Positions 4,080 to 23,103 of a DNA stretch of 64,000 bases are shown here, in pieces. The stretch spans positions 1 to 64,000 of the forward strand of contig WGCU01000056.1 of assembly GCA_015493635.1 (NCBI GenBank), given 5' to 3'. The translations under genes were made by a program, and so were the position numbers. Every line of letters starts with the position of its first letter. Within the stretch, counting starts at the first letter, position 1. This stretch comes from Spirochaetaceae bacterium (lineage in GTDB: Bacteria > Spirochaetota > Spirochaetia > B11-G9). Under the pieces are notes generated by a model that had not been told where the DNA came from, did no database searches, and saw only the letters and a program-made list of their open reading frames with translations.

Positions 4080-4313
4080 GTGGGATACTTTACTGAAGAA
4101 CAGATAAAACAAAAAATAGAAACTATTTCATCCGCCATCGACGTTGTCTTGTCTGGCGGTAAATCATATCGATTAAACGATACACAGGGTGATGTTCAGG
4201 TTACCCGGGAATCTTTGCCGAATTTACAAAATGCTCTTAATTATTGGGTCTCAAAATATAACGAAATATCGGATAGCAATTCTGGAATCATTTCTCTGGG
4301 GAGTAGCCGCTGA
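4080..4313 (+). CDS. Head-tail joining protein, gpW-like
   Basis: A 77-residue protein of the size and pattern of lambda gpW: an N-terminal helix (FTEEQIKQKIETISSAIDVV), a short beta turn (KSYRLNDTQGDVQVTRE), then a second helix. gpW sits at the connector and is needed for tail attachment. The position between terminase and portal is the same as in lambda. The start is GTG at 4080; no good ribosome site is visible, and an overlapping ATG at 4078 is in another frame. The stop overlaps the portal start by one base (TGATG). Confidence 0.75.
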   Translation: MGYFTEEQIKQKIETISSAIDVVLSGGKSYRLNDTQGDVQVTRESLPNLQNALNYWVSKYNEISDSNSGIISLGSSR

Positions 4314-5878
4314 TGGGTTTATTGAACTATTTCCGGAGAAAAGAAACGGTAATAATAAGAGAGCGTGTTCATGATTCAGATAATAAATCAGGGTCAAGAA
4401 AACTTTCTTTCCGTGGTAAAACGAAATACGGCAATATAAAATATCACGATTCCGGATATACCGATTATGCTCAACAGAGAGAAAATGCAAGGGGAATATA
4501 TTATGATTCCCTTATAGCCAGAGGGATTGTAAACCGGCTTATTGATAATGTTATAAATACCGGTTTAACGTGGGAATCCTCTCCGCTTTGGTCCATGATA
4601 CCTGAATGGAAGAAGAAGTCCGAGGAAGAGAAATATATATGGACTGAACAGGTTGAGAATTATTTTACTCTGTATGCGGAGAGCAAAGAAGCAGATATCA
4701 AGGGAAGATTAACGTTCAAGCAAATACAGCGGCTTCTTTATCTTTTGCGTGTTAAAGAGGGCGAATACTTTTGTGTATTAAGATATTTGAACAGCACAAA
4801 AAGAACCTCCCCTGTTGCAATTCAGATTTTGAATAATGATCAGATACAACAGCCAACTGACGCAAAAACTTTACAGGATATTAAAGCCAGAGGCGCAACT
4901 GTCAATGAAGGTGTTGAATATGATTCTACCGGAAAGATGATTGCCATTCATGTTGTAGAGGATCTTGAAAGCTTCAGGGGGAAAAACAAACGTATTCCTG
5001 TTTTTGGTCCAAGATCCGGGCGTCGGTTTATTATCCATGATGCAAATTTTGAGACTGCTGAGCAATATAGGGGATTTCCCGAACTTGCAGCGTTTATTTA
5101 TGAACTCGACAGGCTTACAGAATACGATATCAATGAACTTGAAGCTACTGTAACAGGTGCAATGTTCTTCGCTGCAATTGAAACAGAAAGAGGAGCCCAG
5201 TCAAAAGGGCCAATAATTAAAGTAGCTGACAGCTCTTCTCAGCAGGCGAATACTGATGCAAATTCCGGAGTCAAGGAAGTAAATATAAAAAATAAAGCAT
5301 TGCTTATCCAGAATCTTGCGCCCGGACAAAAGTTAAAAGGATTTCAACCAAACAGGCCCAATTCTAATTTTGCCGCTTTTGAAGAAGTTTTTGAGAACCG
5401 GATTGCCGGTTCACTTGGTATGCCATTATCTGTCTTCAGGCAGAAGTTTCAAACTTCATATTCTGCTGCACGGGCGGAAATACTCTTCTTCTGGAATAGC
5501 ATCTTTCGACGGAGGGATGATTTTATTTCAGGGTTTCTGAATCCCTTCTATGAAGCATGGTTCACAGAGCATGTTAATGCCGGAAATATTGAGGCCCCGG
5601 GATTCAAACAATTACCCGTTGTCCAGCGTGCATGGTTATATGGCACTTGGAATGGAATTTCTAGACCTGTTGTTGACCCTGTTAAAGAGGTAAATGCTGT
5701 TGAAAAAAGGCAGCGCCTCGGTCATACAACAGGAGAGCGGGAAGCAAAAGCGTATAACGGATCTGATTTCAGGGAGAATATAAAGCGATTAAAGACAGAA
5801 AACGAATTATTGGCAGAAACAAATAAAGTACTTGATCCCGCTCAATATATTGATCCAGGGAGAAAAGAAGATGATTGA
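4313..5878 (+). CDS. Phage portal protein, lambda gpB family
   Basis: A 521-residue portal that should form the dodecameric channel at the packaging vertex. Recognisable features are the N-terminal YAQQRENARGIYYDSLIARG segment, the ATVTGAMFFAAIETERG region near residue 285, and the FQTSYSAARAEILFFWNSIF stretch near residue 385, all typical of lambda-family portals. Length is normal for this family. It starts one base inside the gpW stop and ends 8 bp past the start of a small membrane-protein gene. Confidence 0.92.
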   Translation: MGLLNYFRRKETVIIRERVHDSDNKSGSRKLSFRGKTKYGNIKYHDSGYTDYAQQRENARGIYYDSLIARGIVNRLIDNVINTGLTWESSPLWSMIPEWKKKSEEEKYIWTEQVENYFTLYAESKEADIKGRLTFKQIQRLLYLLRVKEGEYFCVLRYLNSTKRTSPVAIQILNNDQIQQPTDAKTLQDIKARGATVNEGVEYDSTGKMIAIHVVEDLESFRGKNKRIPVFGPRSGRRFIIHDANFETAEQYRGFPELAAFIYELDRLTEYDINELEATVTGAMFFAAIETERGAQSKGPIIKVADSSSQQANTDANSGVKEVNIKNKALLIQNLAPGQKLKGFQPNRPNSNFAAFEEVFENRIAGSLGMPLSVFRQKFQTSYSAARAEILFFWNSIFRRRDDFISGFLNPFYEAWFTEHVNAGNIEAPGFKQLPVVQRAWLYGTWNGISRPVVDPVKEVNAVEKRQRLGHTTGEREAKAYNGSDFRENIKRLKTENELLAETNKVLDPAQYIDPGRKEDD

Positions 5879-6134
5879 TCTAAGGACGGTAATAGCTTTA
5901 ACCGTTGGAGTCATGACAGTAGGGGGCGCAATTATTGCTTTCTTTCAGATGCAGACGAGGCAAAATATGAAAATTGAGATACTGCAGGCAGCTATAAAGA
6001 AACTGGAGCAACAGCATGATGAGCAGACTCATTCACAGATAGAAACGGAAAAGGCAATTACAGAGATCAATACAAAGCTGGATCATATTGTCAAGACTCT
6101 TGATGAAATCAGGTTGCCACGGAGTTCAAGATGA
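5871..6134 (+). CDS. Small membrane protein with coiled coil (possible holin/antiholin)
   Basis: ATG at 5871 with an upstream GGGAGAAAAGAAG purine run gives an 87-residue protein; an upstream in-frame ATG at 5832 lies deep inside the portal gene and is less likely. Residues 5-25 (RTVIALTVGVMTVGGAIIAF) form one membrane segment, followed by a long coiled-coil helix to the end (KIEILQAAIKKLEQQHDEQ). The topology suits a type of small phage holin or antiholin, or an inner-membrane spanin. It is followed immediately by a peptidase gene and another membrane protein, which favours a lysis role; that role is inferred. Confidence 0.6.
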   Translation: MIDLRTVIALTVGVMTVGGAIIAFFQMQTRQNMKIEILQAAIKKLEQQHDEQTHSQIETEKAITEINTKLDHIVKTLDEIRLPRSSR

Positions 6135-6733
6135 TAAAAGGGGTAAAGCACTGGAATAGTAGATCCAAATATTATTCGCAGGTGAATAACTCAACAGAAG
6201 CCATACTCAGGAAAGTCGGCGTCAAAAAATGGCTGGAGACGTGCGGATCCACCGCAGCAGTTAACTGTCTTGCTGCAATGGGTCATGATGTTGCCGTTTT
6301 TTGCCCAGGGCAATACCGGCCTCAACCGGAAGATGTGCTTACAAATTATTTCAACGATCCCAGGAACTACAGGAAGCTGAAGGATATCCGCAGAAATCTG
6401 GATCCGGATAAATATCCCGGGAACAGAGTTCCGCAGTATTACCCGCTTGCCGTCCATGAGGTTTTTAATGTTGAGGCTGAATTCAAATTTCTAAAAGATT
6501 TTGAAAGCGTTGCAGAGCTTATCTGTGAAGGATTTGCTGTGCAGCTTTGTCTTGTGTCTCCCGGTCATTATATAGCAGCGGTGGCATACGATGAAGATAC
6601 AGAAGAGATAATCTTTAACGATCCATGGCCGGAAAGATTTTCAGATAACAACGGATTTAACCGTCGTATGACGAGGGCTGAATATGAAGAAAATACAAAA
6701 CCATTTGTAATCATTTACAGGGGGGAATCATGA
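6131..6733 (+). CDS. C39-like cysteine peptidase, putative endolysin
   Basis: A 200-residue protein with a papain-fold C39_2-type signature: Cys38 in WLETCGSTAAVNCLAAMG, His146 in SPGHYIAAVAYDED, and an Asn/Asp ligand at 163-164 in IIFNDPW. There is no signal peptide, so release to the periplasm would need a holin. It lies between two small membrane-protein genes with 4-bp overlaps on both sides, which suggests a peptidoglycan-cleaving endolysin. A role in processing a virion protein is the alternative, since the head-maturation protease follows soon after. The peptidase call is firm; the endolysin call is inferred. Confidence 0.75.
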   Translation: MIKGVKHWNSRSKYYSQVNNSTEAILRKVGVKKWLETCGSTAAVNCLAAMGHDVAVFCPGQYRPQPEDVLTNYFNDPRNYRKLKDIRRNLDPDKYPGNRVPQYYPLAVHEVFNVEAEFKFLKDFESVAELICEGFAVQLCLVSPGHYIAAVAYDEDTEEIIFNDPWPERFSDNNGFNRRMTRAEYEENTKPFVIIYRGES

Positions 6734-6993
6734 GTGATGAGATTAAAGGTGAGGTTTTGACTGCTCCTAATGGATATCTACAGGATTCTCAGGGGAATAA
6801 GTCCAGCAAGAGGCTCTTGGGAGTTATCTTTATGGCTGTCGGAGGTTTGTTCCTGCTGATTACCGGAATATTTGCACTATACAAAACAGTATCGGACCCT
6901 ACAACAGCAATTTCGGTGGGGAAAACCATGCTCTACGCCGGAGCAGGGTTGCTTGGTATTGGTGTAGTTGAAAAATTCGGAGGCAGTAAATGA
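6730..6993 (+). CDS. Two-helix membrane protein, putative holin
   Basis: An 87-residue protein with a soluble N-terminus of about 27 residues, then two hydrophobic segments (LLGVIFMAVGGLFLLITGIF at about 29-49 and MLYAGAGLLGIGVV at about 66-80) and a short basic tail. Size and topology match class II phage holins. It overlaps the peptidase gene by 4 bp and the head-protease gene by 4 bp. No family is recognised with confidence. The holin call depends on topology and on the neighbouring peptidase. Confidence 0.55.
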   Translation: MSDEIKGEVLTAPNGYLQDSQGNKSSKRLLGVIFMAVGGLFLLITGIFALYKTVSDPTTAISVGKTMLYAGAGLLGIGVVEKFGGSK

Positions 6994-8060
6994 AGACTAT
7001 CGCAATCTCTGGTGTTATTGGATGGGATGTTATCCCTGATGATATTAGAGCCAAGCTGGAAGAGGCGGGAGGTGAAGATATAACCGTTGAGGTTTCATCC
7101 CCTGGTGGATTCGTAACCGACGGTTTAGAAATATTTAACCTGATAAAAAATTATAAAGGTAATAAAACAACTCTCCTGATGGGGATGGCTGCATCAATGG
7201 CGTCTTACATTGTGCTTGCTGGAGACAAGGTTGTTGCAGAGGATAATGCCATTTTTATGGTCCATAATGTGTGGGGGTTTGCTGTTGGAGATCATCGGGA
7301 ATTAAGAAAGTCCGCAGATGTTCAAGAGGGAATGACACGGCTTTTATCAAAAGCTTATATCAGAAAAACCGGGAAAACCGAAGAAGAGATTCGGAACATG
7401 ATGGATGAAGAAACATATCTTTTTGGAGACGAGATTCTCGATGCCGGATTCGTTGACGAGGTTGTTCCTGCAGGAGACGGAGCAGAGGATAAAGATTCTG
7501 CTATAACCATGGCACAGATTGCAATGAATAAATGCAAGAAAACCATGGAAGAAAAACAGGAAAAGAATCAGCTTGAGAAAGCCGCAGCGATGCTCGGCGA
7601 AATAATGAAAAAGAACTCTATCGTTGATAGAGGGAAGTCCGGCGTTGCCGGGGATAATACCGCCGCTATGGCGGAACCAAAAAAAGAGGAGGTCAAGACA
7701 ATGACTCTTGATGAACTCAAACAGGAATTCTCCGGTGTATATGCCGAGGCGGTAAACATCGGAGTAGAGCAGGAACGCAAAAGAGTAATGGCATTGCGTT
7801 CATATATCGAGGCCGATCCCGACAACATGAAACTTGCCGAGGTCGTTAATACTGCAATTGCAGGAGGACAGACCGTAGAGGAGGTAAATGCAAAACTGCA
7901 GGTAGCCATACGGGATGGAGGGAAGACGTCGGGTGAGAATCCCCCGGATGTTCAGACTGCGGCAGCCGTTGAAGATCTTTCACAGGAAGATATAGAGGCA
8001 GCAAAACTGGCAGGAATGACTCTTGAGGAATATCGCAAAGCGATGAAGGAGAGTGAATAA
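6990..8060 (+). CDS. ClpP-like prohead protease with C-terminal scaffold region
   Basis: A 356-residue head-maturation protease. The N-terminal 170 residues have the ClpP fold: VSSPGG at 35-40, nucleophile Ser69 in MGMAASMASYI, and His92 in FMVHNVWG. A long hydrophilic linker follows, then a C-terminal helical region from about residue 238 (MTLDELKQEFSGVYAEAV) that resembles a capsid scaffold. This is the arrangement of lambda gpC, whose C-terminal part is also made separately as Nu3. It cleaves scaffold and capsid parts during head assembly. The start overlaps the upstream membrane-protein gene and the stop overlaps the decoration gene. Confidence 0.9.
   Translation: MKTIAISGVIGWDVIPDDIRAKLEEAGGEDITVEVSSPGGFVTDGLEIFNLIKNYKGNKTTLLMGMAASMASYIVLAGDKVVAEDNAIFMVHNVWGFAVGDHRELRKSADVQEGMTRLLSKAYIRKTGKTEEEIRNMMDEETYLFGDEILDAGFVDEVVPAGDGAEDKDSAITMAQIAMNKCKKTMEEKQEKNQLEKAAAMLGEIMKKNSIVDRGKSGVAGDNTAAMAEPKKEEVKTMTLDELKQEFSGVYAEAVNIGVEQERKRVMALRSYIEADPDNMKLAEVVNTAIAGGQTVEEVNAKLQVAIRDGGKTSGENPPDVQTAAAVEDLSQEDIEAAKLAGMTLEEYRKAMKESE
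7701..8060 (+). CDS. Nested scaffold protein inside the protease gene (Nu3-like)
   Basis: An in-frame ATG at 7701 (codon 238 of the protease) is preceded by GAGGAGGT at 7686-7693, a near-perfect Shine-Dalgarno with a 7-nt spacer. Translation from here yields 119 residues corresponding exactly to the scaffold-like C-terminal domain. In lambda, the scaffold Nu3 is made in the same way from inside gene C. A strong ribosome site inside a coding region, placed just before a domain boundary, is unlikely to be chance. The free product would act as an internal scaffold of the procapsid. Confidence 0.75.
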   Translation: MTLDELKQEFSGVYAEAVNIGVEQERKRVMALRSYIEADPDNMKLAEVVNTAIAGGQTVEEVNAKLQVAIRDGGKTSGENPPDVQTAAAVEDLSQEDIEAAKLAGMTLEEYRKAMKESE

Positions 8061-9391: not shown

Positions 9392-9400
9392 AGCTTTTAA

Positions 9401-9421
9401 CCCGGGGAATCTTTCCCCGGG
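9401..9421 (+). other. Strong GC-rich hairpin after the capsid gene
   Basis: CCCGGGGAA at 9401-9409 and TTCCCCGGG at 9413-9421 form a 9-bp stem with a 3-nt loop, nine bases past the capsid stop codon. No U-run follows, so it is not a classical terminator. It may protect the capsid transcript from 3' decay or partly attenuate transcription into the next genes. Confidence 0.75.
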
Positions 9422-9442
9422 AATTGTAAGGAGTTGAAGAAT

Positions 9443-9586
9443 ATGAAAAGAGTAAAGTTCTTGAGAAACGGATGTGAAACCGTAATGGACGACAAGGTCG
9501 CCGTAATCTACGAGAAGAAAAAAAAGGTCAAGATCCTCGGGGATGGTAAGGAAAGCGAGAAAAAGAAAAGTTCCGGGGGTAAATAA
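9443..9586 (+). CDS. Small basic phage protein between capsid and neck genes
   Basis: ATG at 9443 with AAGGAG at 9428-9433 opens a 47-residue frame (begins MKRVKFLRNGCETVMDDKVA) that ends exactly at the start of the next small gene (TAATG). The N-terminal half looks like a small beta domain and the C-terminal half is a Lys/Ser/Gly tail. The good ribosome site and one-base overlap support translation. Small proteins occupy this place in Mu-like phages between gpT and the neck proteins. Function not known. Confidence 0.65.
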   Translation: MKRVKFLRNGCETVMDDKVAVIYEKKKKVKILGDGKESEKKKSSGGK

Positions 9587-9729
9587 TGAAACTCGCAAAA
9601 GGGGTAACCGTATACAGCGGTAGAAATAAATTTACCGAAGATATCCCGGATAAACTTGCCGAGAAGATTGGGCTGAAAACAAAATCAAAGTCTACTCCGG
9701 TAAATAAAAAGGCAGATAGCAATAAATGA
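9586..9729 (+). CDS. Small phage protein, neck region
   Basis: A 47-residue protein (begins MKLAKGVTVYSGRNKFTEDI) coupled to its neighbours at both ends: its ATG shares a base with the previous stop and its TGA overlaps the next ATG. The segment GVTVYSGRNKFTEDIPDKLA suggests a small folded unit, followed by a Lys/Ser/Asn tail. It may be a Mu gp38-like small protein, but sequence alone does not prove this. Confidence 0.6.
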   Translation: MKLAKGVTVYSGRNKFTEDIPDKLAEKIGLKTKSKSTPVNKKADSNK

Positions 9730-18924: not shown

Positions 18925-19550
18925 TGAAATCGGTCTTGCTTGGATTATTCCCGAAGGGACACCCGTGGCAATTCCCGGAAAAATTCAAGTCTGTAATTGA
19001 AGCGCTCTCTTTATCTCTCGACAGAGTAAAAATATTCTTGCGAGGTATTCTGCTCGAAGCAAACCCGGGGACAGCAACGGACTTACTCCCAGAATGGTAT
19101 GCTGAACTCGGCTTGAGTTACGACGAAACAAAAACACTTACAACCCGGCAGAGCAGAGCAAAACAGGTATATAGTTCCACCGGCGGACAGAATAAAAATT
19201 ATATACAGGATCAGATACAAATATCATATCCAGATGTTGTCATTGAAGAATATTTTACGAATCCTGAAAACATGGTCGGTCTCGCAATGGTCGGAGATAT
19301 GCAGGTACAGGGTTATCCGTCATGGCTACCGGTAACACCAACGGATGGGAGTTTTCCTGTCCATTATTACCGAGTAATCGGAGAGGTGGATGACATAAGC
19401 GATTTGTACGGATTGAAAAACCTACTCAATAGAATCGCTCCATTAACGCACGAACCAGTCTATGAAATCACAATTAGAAATCAAACAGCTACTAGTGAAG
19501 TCGGTCTCGCAATGGTCGGACTTGCACAAGTAGGAAGGGGTAGAACATGA
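18915..19550 (+). CDS. Baseplate protein, Mu gp48-like
   Basis: A 211-residue protein with the gp48 start (LGLFPKGHPWQFPEKFKSVI) and the TDLLPEWYAELGLSYDETKT segment typical of the family. It bridges the baseplate wedge to the tail fibre. An internal duplication is visible: VGLAMVGDMQV near residue 120 and VGLAMVGLAQV at the C-terminus, encoded by an identical 21-bp stretch at 19275-19295 and 19500-19520. It overlaps the previous gene by 10 bp. A second ATG at 18924 is a possible start. Confidence 0.85.
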   Translation: MGIMKSVLLGLFPKGHPWQFPEKFKSVIEALSLSLDRVKIFLRGILLEANPGTATDLLPEWYAELGLSYDETKTLTTRQSRAKQVYSSTGGQNKNYIQDQIQISYPDVVIEEYFTNPENMVGLAMVGDMQVQGYPSWLPVTPTDGSFPVHYYRVIGEVDDISDLYGLKNLLNRIAPLTHEPVYEITIRNQTATSEVGLAMVGLAQVGRGRT

Positions 19551-20590
19551 GAAAAATAGCAGGACCCGGAAGTGTCTCGGGGGAATTCAAGGATTATGAT
19601 CCCGTTACTAATCCAACGGGAACATATATCATGGCTGACTGGGCGAATGATGTCCAGAGAGAATTAATCGGAATTCAGGATGAACTCTCAATAGCAGAAG
19701 CTGACGGATCGAACAAATATATTCTCTCGGCGATCAAAGGAGTTGCAATCCAGCACTCAAAACAGATCGGAGAATTGTTTTTCTTGCATAAACACAAAGC
19801 TCCAGCAGCGTTTGACAAGGATAATCCAGATGATTTTTTTCCGGCAGTTTGTCTCGATATCGGAGACCAAGATTTAGATGTTGCAAACTGGCCTGATCTT
19901 GTACCGGAACTCAGGGCTATCAGAGCAGAATACAACGAGGGGAAAACGGGAGCGAAAAATGAGTTCGATGTAACAGATTGGGCGATTGCTTCCAATGTTG
20001 CTACGTTAACTTTTGCTAATACGACAGCGGAACTTGCAATCCTTGCGGCATTGGCAGAGGATAATCTTGTACATGGCTCATATACCGGATGGAGAACAAT
20101 TACCCTACCAACAGCCATCGGTGACATTGCTGCTGGTGATTATGCAATTACAGCAATTGATTCTCTTGCCAGGACTGTCAGCTTTGCATTTACCGCAGCT
20201 GATAACTCGGGTGCGGTCAACTCGGTTGCCAGTTTTTACACTCACAGAATTGAAGGATCAACAACAACGGCCCGTATTTTCGAAGCATCCGCAAGAACGC
20301 TTGTCTCTGCCAATGATGCAGATGGAGCACATATTGCAGGTTTAAGGATGAGAGATACATTTCAGGGACACAGATTCAAAATACAGGCAACCACTAATAA
20401 TACTGTAGGACCTAATGCTACAGATTATACTAATAGAGTTAATGTTTCTGGAAATACTGTAAATATAGGTGCTCCAGGTCTGTCGATAGGTTCAGATGGT
20501 GTAAATGGTACACCTCGAACATCCAACGAAACGCGTCCAAAATCTCTTGGTGGACACATGTACATGTGGGGAAGAAATTACGTAGCATAA
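19547..20590 (+). CDS. Tail fibre / receptor-binding protein
   Basis: A 347-residue fibre. The N-terminal part (YDPVTNPTGTYIMADWANDV, then QRELIGIQDELSIAEADGS) resembles fibre bases that attach to Mu-type baseplates. The middle is beta-rich. The C-terminus (IGSDGVNGTPRTSNETRPKS) has the SNETRPKS turn of short tail-collar proteins and ends YMWGRNYVA. The C-terminal tip should determine host receptor choice. It occupies the place of Mu gene 49/S. No invertible cassette or second fibre tip is seen next to it. Confidence 0.8.
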   Translation: MRKIAGPGSVSGEFKDYDPVTNPTGTYIMADWANDVQRELIGIQDELSIAEADGSNKYILSAIKGVAIQHSKQIGELFFLHKHKAPAAFDKDNPDDFFPAVCLDIGDQDLDVANWPDLVPELRAIRAEYNEGKTGAKNEFDVTDWAIASNVATLTFANTTAELAILAALAEDNLVHGSYTGWRTITLPTAIGDIAAGDYAITAIDSLARTVSFAFTAADNSGAVNSVASFYTHRIEGSTTTARIFEASARTLVSANDADGAHIAGLRMRDTFQGHRFKIQATTNNTVGPNATDYTNRVNVSGNTVNIGAPGLSIGSDGVNGTPRTSNETRPKSLGGHMYMWGRNYVA

Positions 20591-20600
20591 AGGAGGCTAT

Positions 20601-20804
20601 ATGAAAACGTTAAAAATCGTACATCCAACGGGTGAATTTGTAGACGAGGTTGGAGTTCTTGACGATGTGAAAGTCGTCGAGTGTGAAGATGCGGAATATG
20701 CCGACACAATGAAACGTGCAAGGCTGACAGTTGAATTGCATAATAGAGATTTTCCAGATGACGAATGGCAGATACAGGACGTTTCCAAGGTAGATGAGAC
20801 ATGA
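20601..20804 (+). CDS. Small acidic phage protein after the fibre gene
   Basis: A 67-residue protein with a good ribosome site (AAGGAGG) ten bases past the fibre stop. The N-terminus (MKTLKIVHPTGEFVDEVGVL) may form beta strands and the rest is acidic. Fibre-assembly chaperones often occupy this place, but no chaperone family is recognised. It overlaps the spanin gene by 4 bp. Confidence 0.6.
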   Translation: MKTLKIVHPTGEFVDEVGVLDDVKVVECEDAEYADTMKRARLTVELHNRDFPDDEWQIQDVSKVDET

Positions 20805-21100
20805 CAATGTTGTTAATTCTCATCATTCTGGTTTTTCTTGCAGGCGGACTCGGTTATCTATATAAACAAGCCCGGAAGGCCCCCAAGAAAGAAAAAGATC
20901 TTGTTAGCGAATATAAACAGTCTATTAAGGAGCGAGACCGTGCGATAAAAGCACTGGAGGAGGTATATCGTGAGGAAGGAGAAAAGAAAAAAAAGATTCA
21001 CACTGGCAGTGATTCTGATAAGTTTAGCGCTTCTCTTGATATCATGTCAGACCTATCAAAAACCGGAGCCAAAGCCAGAGCCGATAAAGATAAACCTTGA
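20801..21100 (+). CDS. Inner-membrane spanin-like protein (Rz-like)
   Basis: A 99-residue protein with a single N-terminal membrane segment (MLLILIILVFLAGGLGYLYK) and a charged coiled-coil body (DLVSEYKQSIKERDRAIKAL). This is the topology of an i-spanin, which spans from the inner membrane toward an outer-membrane partner. The last 131 bp overlap, in another frame, a gene for a small lipoprotein. That overlapping pair is the hallmark of Rz/Rz1 spanins. The family is assigned by architecture, not by sequence identity. Confidence 0.7.
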   Translation: MTMLLILIILVFLAGGLGYLYKQARKAPKKEKDLVSEYKQSIKERDRAIKALEEVYREEGEKKKKIHTGSDSDKFSASLDIMSDLSKTGAKARADKDKP

Positions 21101-21245
21101 ATTTCCGGTATTCCCGGACCCGAAAGGGCAGGTCTCAATGACCAATGGTATTGTCTCCATGCCTTTGGATTACTGGCTCCTGATTACAGATTATGCGATT
21201 GAAGTTGATGCGGTCCGGCAGAAGTATGAGGCATTAAATGAGTAA
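20970..21245 (+). CDS. Outer-membrane spanin lipoprotein (Rz1-like)
   Basis: A GTG start at 20970 with GGAGGAGGT at 20956-20964 opens a 91-residue frame overlapping the Rz-like gene in a different frame. It has a lipoprotein signal (RFTLAVILISLALLLISCQ, Cys about residue 26), then a Pro-rich stretch (QKPEPKPEPIKINLEFP) typical of o-spanins. The mature part is longer than lambda Rz1. Together with the upstream protein it would fuse the inner and outer membranes at lysis. Confidence 0.72.
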   Translation: MRKEKRKKRFTLAVILISLALLLISCQTYQKPEPKPEPIKINLEFPVFPDPKGQVSMTNGIVSMPLDYWLLITDYAIEVDAVRQKYEALNE

Positions 21246-21915: not shown

Positions 21916-23103
21916 CTAAAACAATTCCTCTGCCAACTTGCCGACATCTTTAATTTGGTCGTCGGTTATCTCGGTATATCTATCAGACATTTTTTCTGAT
22001 TTATGCCCCGTTAATTTCCGGAGTGCGTGATCCGGTATTCTCCCTCGGAGCATAGTATTGTAAAAGTGTCGCCATGCATGGAAACTTAAATTCCTTTCTT
22101 TCCGGGTATTGTTATCTATTCCGATTATTTCAAGAGTTCTTCTGAAGTGGTTCTCAATGGAACGTTTTCCTATTGGTCGGCTTCTATCATGACCGTAGAA
22201 TACAAAATTGTTCCCCCACGGGTTTATGTTGATCACCTCTTGCAGCACTTCCGCTGTTCTCGATGGTACTGGAACCGCTCTGGCAGATCCCCACTTTGGA
22301 GACTTTAACCCTTCTTCATCCTGCCAGTTCCATTTTATATCAATCCAGTCATTATGGAAGTCTTTAGTCTGCAGCCCTCTGCATTCTCCGAGTCTCATAC
22401 CGGTAGTAGCGGCAAGAAGGTTAATTCCATATAGCCGGAGATCATCCGGGGGAACAGAGAAGAATTTCCGCACTTCATCGGGTGTGAGAATCTTTCTTTC
22501 TGGTTTCTTCTCGGCAAGTTTACGGACGCTATTTGCGGGGTTAATTGCTATTTTACCGAGACGCTTTGCTTCTGATAGCGGGACAGTGACAGCCTGGTAT
22601 ATTGAATTAATCCGACGATTTGATAAAGATGTATTATCACTCAGGTACATAAGGAGGTTTTCGAGGAGAGCTGATGTAACTTGAGATAACGAAATTTTGT
22701 CCTGTTTCGTCTTTTCGAGATATGGGATAACGTGTTTTAAAATAGCACCATGATTATTGCTGCGATAAAGCTCCGATAGCTTTTGGCCCCTTAATTCTTT
22801 TGCTTTGGTATATGCAGAGTCCTTTTCCCAGAACGAGGAGAGATAGGAGACAAAGGTATCTTTAGATCTATTGATAGGCCTCCCTTCCTTTAGCCAAAGC
22901 TTTACAATCGTATTTGCTCCGGCTTTCGATGTGGGGCTCAAATGCCGTGCCTTGTCTCCGAGTTGTGACTGTAAAGATTTAACTGAATATGGTGTGTATT
23001 TTTTGAGATTAAAATCCCAGAACTTAACGTAATAGATCTTACCTTTATGGGCGCCTGTACTTCGTTTGAATAATAGATATTCGGATCTCATTAAGATACA
23101 CAC
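21916..23103 (-). CDS. int: Tyrosine recombinase (phage integrase)
   Basis: A 395-residue integrase. The N-terminal arm-binding region is followed by a core-binding SAM-like domain (about 80-180) and the catalytic domain with Arg237 (TTGMRLGECRGL), His342 and Arg345 (HAWRHFYNTM), His367 (LTGHKSEKMSDRY) and nucleophile Tyr376. It should integrate and, with an excisionase not seen here, excise the prophage. The GTG at 23103 or the ATG at 23091 can start it; neither has a clear ribosome site. It is convergent with the late operon and lies next to tRNA-Leu, the probable target. Confidence 0.93.
   Translation of the reverse strand: MCILMRSEYLLFKRSTGAHKGKIYYVKFWDFNLKKYTPYSVKSLQSQLGDKARHLSPTSKAGANTIVKLWLKEGRPINRSKDTFVSYLSSFWEKDSAYTKAKELRGQKLSELYRSNNHGAILKHVIPYLEKTKQDKISLSQVTSALLENLLMYLSDNTSLSNRRINSIYQAVTVPLSEAKRLGKIAINPANSVRKLAEKKPERKILTPDEVRKFFSVPPDDLRLYGINLLAATTGMRLGECRGLQTKDFHNDWIDIKWNWQDEEGLKSPKWGSARAVPVPSRTAEVLQEVININPWGNNFVFYGHDRSRPIGKRSIENHFRRTLEIIGIDNNTRKERNLSFHAWRHFYNTMLRGRIPDHALRKLTGHKSEKMSDRYTEITDDQIKDVGKLAEELF

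Follow-up and report, generated by a model that had tools for sequence, protein, structure and literature searches.

Introduction

The Peptidase_C39_2 domain is a recognised catalytic domain of endolysins, which a survey of lysin domains encountered in phages of Gram-positive hosts alone (PMC8223927). The methanogen provirus phi-mru lyses its host with PeiR, an enzyme of the C39 type (PMC6189367). Mycobacteriophage lysis is controlled by a pair of proteins, LysF1a/LysF1b, one of 88 aa with two transmembrane (TM) segments and one with a single N-terminal TM segment (PMC13056207). The lysis systems of spirochaete phages are little known, and the locus described here provides a concrete candidate for a lysis enzyme. 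Judging from sequence and gene context, it is probable that three genes at positions 5871-6993 of a spirochaete prophage constitute the endolysin-holin part of a lysis system situated inside the head operon, with the spanins behind the tail fibre.

Results

The prophage and its late operon

The window (the whole stretch of DNA analysed) comprises the initial 64 kb of a contig of 90.8 kb, and those relatives of its genome that have named records are spirochaetes. A prophage spans approximately 1-23 kb of the window. Its genes run from terminase, gpW-like, and portal through the three-gene module to a ClpP-type prohead protease; then come the decoration and major capsid proteins, the contractile tail, the fibre and the spanins, and last an integrase-family gene. 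As the contig begins within the prophage, the left end is cut off at base 1 and early genes are not visible. Contig C54, reached via a RecT search in the same genome, was considered as the missing left end and rejected, having neither an overlap with the window start nor matches to the early genes of related prophages. The features of interest are:

4313..5878, + strand: portal protein, upstream border of the module (Phage_portal_2, E=1.1e-54; phrog_21 portal)
5871..6134, + strand: smTM1, 87 aa, N-terminal TM helix and coiled-coil-like tail, predicted holin partner or regulator (ATG at 5871, 8-bp overlap with the portal gene)
6131..6733, + strand: C39-like cysteine peptidase, 200 aa, predicted endolysin (PF13529 match, Q17/C38/H146/D164, predicted fold)
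6730..6993, + strand: smTM2, 87 aa, hydrophobic hairpin-like membrane protein, predicted holin of the SSKR family (orthologues directly after C39)
6990..8060, + strand: ClpP/S14-type prohead protease, downstream border of the module (CLP_protease, E=9.2e-28; head maturation protease PHROGs)
19547..20590, + strand: tail fibre-like protein, preceding the spanin genes (its orthologues close the tail operons of L010 and L014)
20801..21100, + strand: Rz-like inner-membrane spanin, 99 aa (N-terminal TM; weak match to an Rz-like spanin PHROG, E=0.0016; orthologues in L010 and L014)
20970..21245, + strand: Rz1-like lipoprotein spanin in another frame, exact start uncertain (lipobox-like LLISC; homologues in L085 and L089)
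probably 21916-23103: integrase-family gene, end of the prophage gene order

A preliminary description of this DNA had reported a C39-type peptidase without a signal peptide, flanked by two 87-residue membrane proteins, joined by overlaps of 4-8 bp and placed among head genes. A recheck of the sequence returned the same coordinates and gene sizes, with overlaps along portal, smTM1, C39, smTM2, and protease of 8, 4, 4, and 4 bp, and the bordering genes are indeed a Phage_portal_2 portal and a ClpP-type prohead protease. Each of the four starts (smTM1, C39, smTM2, and protease) is preceded by a Shine-Dalgarno-like purine-rich stretch. Tight overlaps are frequent across the whole late operon and those of the module are therefore not special on their own, unlike the gene order, which is kept in independent phages (see below). 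Promoter-like sites showed no excess over shuffles and terminator-like sites only a slight one, which is compatible with separate as well as with joint transcription of the module. Elsewhere in the operon, a 334-nt gap without an assigned gene (window 9392-9725), from the major capsid gene to the next head/tail gene, exceeds the other gaps.

The C39-like peptidase

The peptidase matches Pfam PF13529 (Peptidase_C39_2) with E=1.2e-7 and 32.8 bits, against a curated cut-off of 24, and no N-terminal hydrophobic segment can be read from its sequence, both in agreement with the preliminary description. The catalytic Gln, Cys, His, and Asp of papain-like peptidases are present, and an alignment of 31 homologues shows no variation at Q17, C38, P144, H146, or D164. 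The PDB neighbours of the AlphaFold model (pLDDT 95.7) are papain-like and C39-like proteases, including 3erv, while among the viral structural neighbours (BFVD) are lysozymes of Synechococcus phages and the endolysins of S-N03 and of Gordonia phage OneUp; the eight top viral hits have TM-scores of 0.42-0.68 to the query. Other BFVD neighbours are wall hydrolases that belong to tail or morphogenesis proteins, as would suit a morphogenesis or ejection enzyme acting either on a head protein or, once packaged, on peptidoglycan at DNA entry. Such a role would explain the place of C39 beside the prohead protease, which it directly precedes in GpA/portal_2 phages, although a ClpP-type protease is already there.

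Homologues of C39 occur in seven of 98 relatives, counting the genome of the window itself, and by profile in 15 of 395 members of the class, where some matches are weak. Single-sequence scans of the viral and genome collections returned no C39 matches and it was an alignment query that recovered the homologues, which amount to 8 genome contigs and 35 viral-contig loci; no homologue was found among annotated phage genomes. Not all copies are in recognisable phages. Three of them stand in tandem on a contig that has no obvious phage genes (L016:666-2436, G076:C76), and two of these three have lost the catalytic Cys and may thus be pseudo-enzymes.

Small membrane proteins and spanins

The two flanking proteins are membrane proteins as had been claimed, smTM1 with one N-terminal TM followed by a charged coiled-coil-like tail and smTM2 with one clear TM (residues 32-50) and a weaker second hydrophobic stretch that falls under the hydropathy threshold; the smTM2 orthologue of L043 has a clear second TM. 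Orthologues of smTM1 occupy the same slot in L010, L019, and L096, and its architecture is shared by proteins in L036, L040, L043, L053, L088, L090, L100, and L116. XhlA-type proteins have a coiled coil followed by a C-terminal TM, whereas the TM of smTM1 is N-terminal; the XhlA-like order does occur in relatives (L029, L042, and L105). Orthologues of smTM2 lie immediately 3' of C39 in L010, L014, L036, L040, L043, L045, and L053, and no homologue was found among annotated phage genomes. Collectively, three or more sequence families are represented among the membrane proteins encoded after C39: SSKR (in the window), a 95-aa family (L038 and L100), and a family in L105.

The spanin pair had been placed about 14 kb away, after the fibre gene, and was found there, 13.8 kb downstream of the module, as an N-terminal TM protein and a small lipoprotein whose genes overlap by 131 bp in the manner of Rz/Rz1. 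In several phages, a 140-160-aa protein with a signal-peptide-like start, a long polar middle, and a C-terminal TM is encoded behind a holin-like gene (L108:8971-9453, L118:7567-8037, L019:15886-16365, and L026:1362-1784), and these proteins are possibly an unusual spanin type of spirochaete phages.

The portal-protease slot in related phages

A C39 peptidase between portal and protease was sought in related phages, and the complete order of portal, TM/coiled-coil protein, C39, small membrane protein, and protease was found in G042, G107, L040, L043, and L100. Counting partial versions, the order recurs in about a dozen spirochaete phages. The slots of G037 and L045 are without the first small gene, that of L038 carries an extra 328-aa gene, and those of L036, L105, and L116 are cut by contig ends and agree so far as they run, except for an insert in L036. 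Genes resembling GIY-YIG/NUMOD3 homing endonucleases interrupt the module precisely at the junction of the small TM gene with C39 at L029:9363-10004 and L036:2599-3219; these ORFs of 206-213 aa had been considered as a second enzyme between smTM1 and C39, a proposal rejected on account of this resemblance.

Several head operons of the same group have no C39 in the slot (G066, G407, G408, and L096), which tells against a morphogenetic function of the peptidase. All four retain an smTM1-type protein, which in G066 stands alone, while the slot of G408 has a phrog_5335 protein between an smTM1-like and a 2-TM protein, that of G407 has a weak phrog_5335 match in this place, and in that of L096 a DUF261-like protein is flanked by smTM1 and a 2-TM protein of 60 aa. 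The phrog_5335 protein (L090:2308-2895 in the G408 head slot) also occurs in Vibrio phage VvAW1 (JQ801337.1:23211-23732), where it sits between the terminase and a run of small genes starting with a putative endolysin.

The persistence of smTM1 in slots without C39 favours the possibility that C39 is a lysin and that smTM1 and smTM2 are structural or otherwise unrelated membrane proteins of the head slot, with the holin encoded elsewhere. The same possibility gains from the Mu-type relatives, which have no TM gene beside C39 yet encode a 144-173-aa multi-TM protein before the terminase region. In the window, however, no further convincing small TM gene besides the spanins was found on the + strand of positions 1-24000, from which the left end of the prophage is missing, and the families of membrane protein encoded behind C39 in the head slot are seen again behind the peptidase in tail-end cassettes (see below). 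A holin located elsewhere is therefore considered rather unlikely, and smTM2 is retained as the putative holin.

C39 at other sites

In L037, L108, L118, and L122, C39 is found outside the head genes, at a site that is conventional for lysis genes; a small protein with two or three TMs comes next, and after it an Rz-like or signal/TM protein. The C39 of L037 follows a fibre homologue, with a 2-TM protein next, and in L122 a TM/coiled-coil protein, C39, a 3-TM protein, and an Rz homologue are consecutive. The peptidases of L037 (tail end) and L040 (portal-protease slot) are 74% identical and are sisters on the tree with support of 100/91. The membrane protein after C39 in L105 (head slot) is homologous to that of L118 (tail end; Z=23 versus shuffles), and that of L100 (head slot) resembles that of L122 (tail end; Z=7). 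This positional exchange between the head slot and the tail end is the strongest argument that would link C39 to lysis.

In some phages, C39 is remote from small TM genes. It lies in the early region near SSB in G407 (L047) and adjoins the terminase in L041, L111, and L113, while the C39 of Mu-type phages has no TM neighbour and comes right after the MuF gene in L025, L031, and L034. C39 stands beside holin- or spanin-like genes in the window and in the late operons of relatives, but not in L047 or the Mu-type phages. On a tree of 42 peptidases, with sites assigned by hand to six groups, at least 14 changes of site were counted, compared to a minimum of 5 and a mean of 25.4 for shuffled labels. 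The number being far below that of shuffled labels and above the minimum, C39 appears to keep its site for a while and then move.

These placements bear on both of the explanations in which C39 is not a lysin. The position after MuF is what a morphogenesis or ejection enzyme might occupy, but the close relatives at the tail end are beside holin- and spanin-like genes and without head genes, and this function is judged decidedly unlikely. The range of sites (after the terminase, in the early region, in the head slot, and at the tail end) and the chromosomal contexts, including the tandem array with two Cys-less copies, could also be expected of a cargo (moron) gene, such as an exclusion, bacteriocin-like, or host-takeover peptidase, inserting at non-essential junctions. 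That C39 would be such cargo is highly improbable, given that it repeatedly stands next to small membrane proteins, which are of at least three families, that its catalytic residues are invariant in 31 of 31 aligned homologues, and that it is the sole candidate for a known lysin in some long phage records.

Among the unassigned ORFs of the 33-kb Mu-type record G397 and the 43-kb record G401, both possibly fragments, Pfam identified no other known lysin family, a search in which unknown families would not show. Other enzymes are present in some relatives, including an N-anchored M23 peptidase upstream of the terminase in the early region of the G037 prophage (L015:6384-6974, G037:C3), possibly a second or alternative lysin, which among the virus records searched turned up just in the one of this prophage itself, and one protein with an SLT domain, detected when G407 and G408, whose C39 is not in the slot, were scanned together. 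C39 is therefore likely to be the lysin of those phages in which it has no competitor, and this is less sure for phages that encode another enzyme. Records G401 and G397 carry, respectively, a major-tropism-determinant N-terminal domain (L085) and a reverse transcriptase domain (L079), possible diversity-generating elements.

The separation of a lysis cassette from the spanins, as put forward in the preliminary description, is supported by the tail-end homologues, the sister peptidases of L037 and L040, the shared holin-like family, the structural neighbours, and the absence of other known lysins from the scanned ORFs of G397 and G401. The missing left end of the prophage may nevertheless encode a separate endolysin, which the preliminary description named as a refutation.

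DUF261 in the slot and in Borrelia prophages

In the close relative L096, C39 is replaced in the portal-protease slot by DUF261 (PF03196; L096:1188-1655). Within the class, DUF261 is nearly confined to one family, and named records place it on Borrelia plasmids; to our knowledge, it is a conserved protein of Borrelia prophage plasmids without a known function. Residues C20, H105, and D117 are invariant in 24 sequences, and the best sensible PDB neighbours of its model (pLDDT 94) are the C39 peptidase domains of PCAT1, at weak E-values (0.02-0.05). DUF261 thus resembles the C39 of the window as a predicted small papain/C39-like Cys-His-Asp protein that occurs in the same slot and in lysis-like cassettes, but differs in having no sequence homology to the C39 family detectable by profile comparison.

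Two further loci, of Borrelia prophages (L158:5716-6150 and L159:7567-8106), encode DUF261 in the order coiled-coil/TM protein, 2-TM protein, DUF261, TM/charged protein, and lipoprotein, which looks like a full lysis cassette, again at head genes, the gene directly after the cassette being a Mu-type portal in L158. DUF261 has a different location in L161, a contig of 30.75 kb resembling a cp32 plasmid, where it may serve lysis or another role. The chances seem about even that the slot of spirochaete myophages is an exchangeable lysis site for non-homologous papain-like endolysins between holin-like genes and that DUF261 is the endolysin of at least some Borrelia prophages.

Discussion

The interpretation of the module as lysis genes is well supported by its context, with the peptidase as the predicted endolysin, and we infer that peptidoglycan is the substrate of C39, that smTM2 acts as holin, and that smTM1 has a role in timing. 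Counting against this interpretation are smTM1 in slots that lack C39, C39 far from small TM genes in some phages, the M23 peptidase of G037, the copies beyond recognisable phages (two of them Cys-less), the weak second TM of smTM2, and the truncation of the prophage. During late expression, C39 would accumulate with the head proteins as a cytoplasmic cysteine endopeptidase until the inner membrane is opened by smTM2, for which smTM1 is probably a helper or timer. The released enzyme could then reach the spirochaete peptidoglycan and cut its peptide cross-links, and Rz/Rz1 would disrupt the outer membrane last.

A split lysis system with an enzyme apparently co-transcribed with head genes would couple the timing of lysis to the making of heads, and one may ask what keeps such a phage from lysing its host too early. 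Because peptidase and holin types are exchanged in one slot, and the same parts occur at the tail end of sister phages, function can be tested by simple swaps in laboratory hosts, while the DUF261 lead makes the question of the Borrelia prophage endolysin directly testable.

Compared to described endolysins with PF13529, the C39 of the window shares a domain above the cut-off, a Cys-His-Asp active site, and a predicted papain-like fold, but is single-domain, without a wall-binding module, and comes from phages of diderm spirochaetes. PeiR is likewise a C39-type enzyme in a virus, one that lyses its host, but it is described as having pseudomurein-binding repeats and acting on pseudomurein. The positions of smTM2 and smTM1 on either side of C39 recall the 2-TM and single N-terminal-TM proteins by the endolysin in the LysF1a/LysF1b system, a likeness of architecture alone, as the host envelope and gene order differ and the second TM of smTM2 is weak. 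A signal-less predicted endolysin, small membrane proteins, and an overlapping Rz/Rz1 pair are in common with diderm systems of the lambda S/R/Rz/Rz1 type, from which the window departs in placing the predicted endolysin and putative holins between portal and protease, with the spanins 13.8 kb away. In the literature brought up by a full-text search, as far as its texts were covered, there was no obvious precedent for lysis genes between portal and protease. What appears to be new is this arrangement, in which a predicted C39-type endolysin and putative holins reside in the head operon, apart from the spanins, and which would be common to many spirochaete phages.
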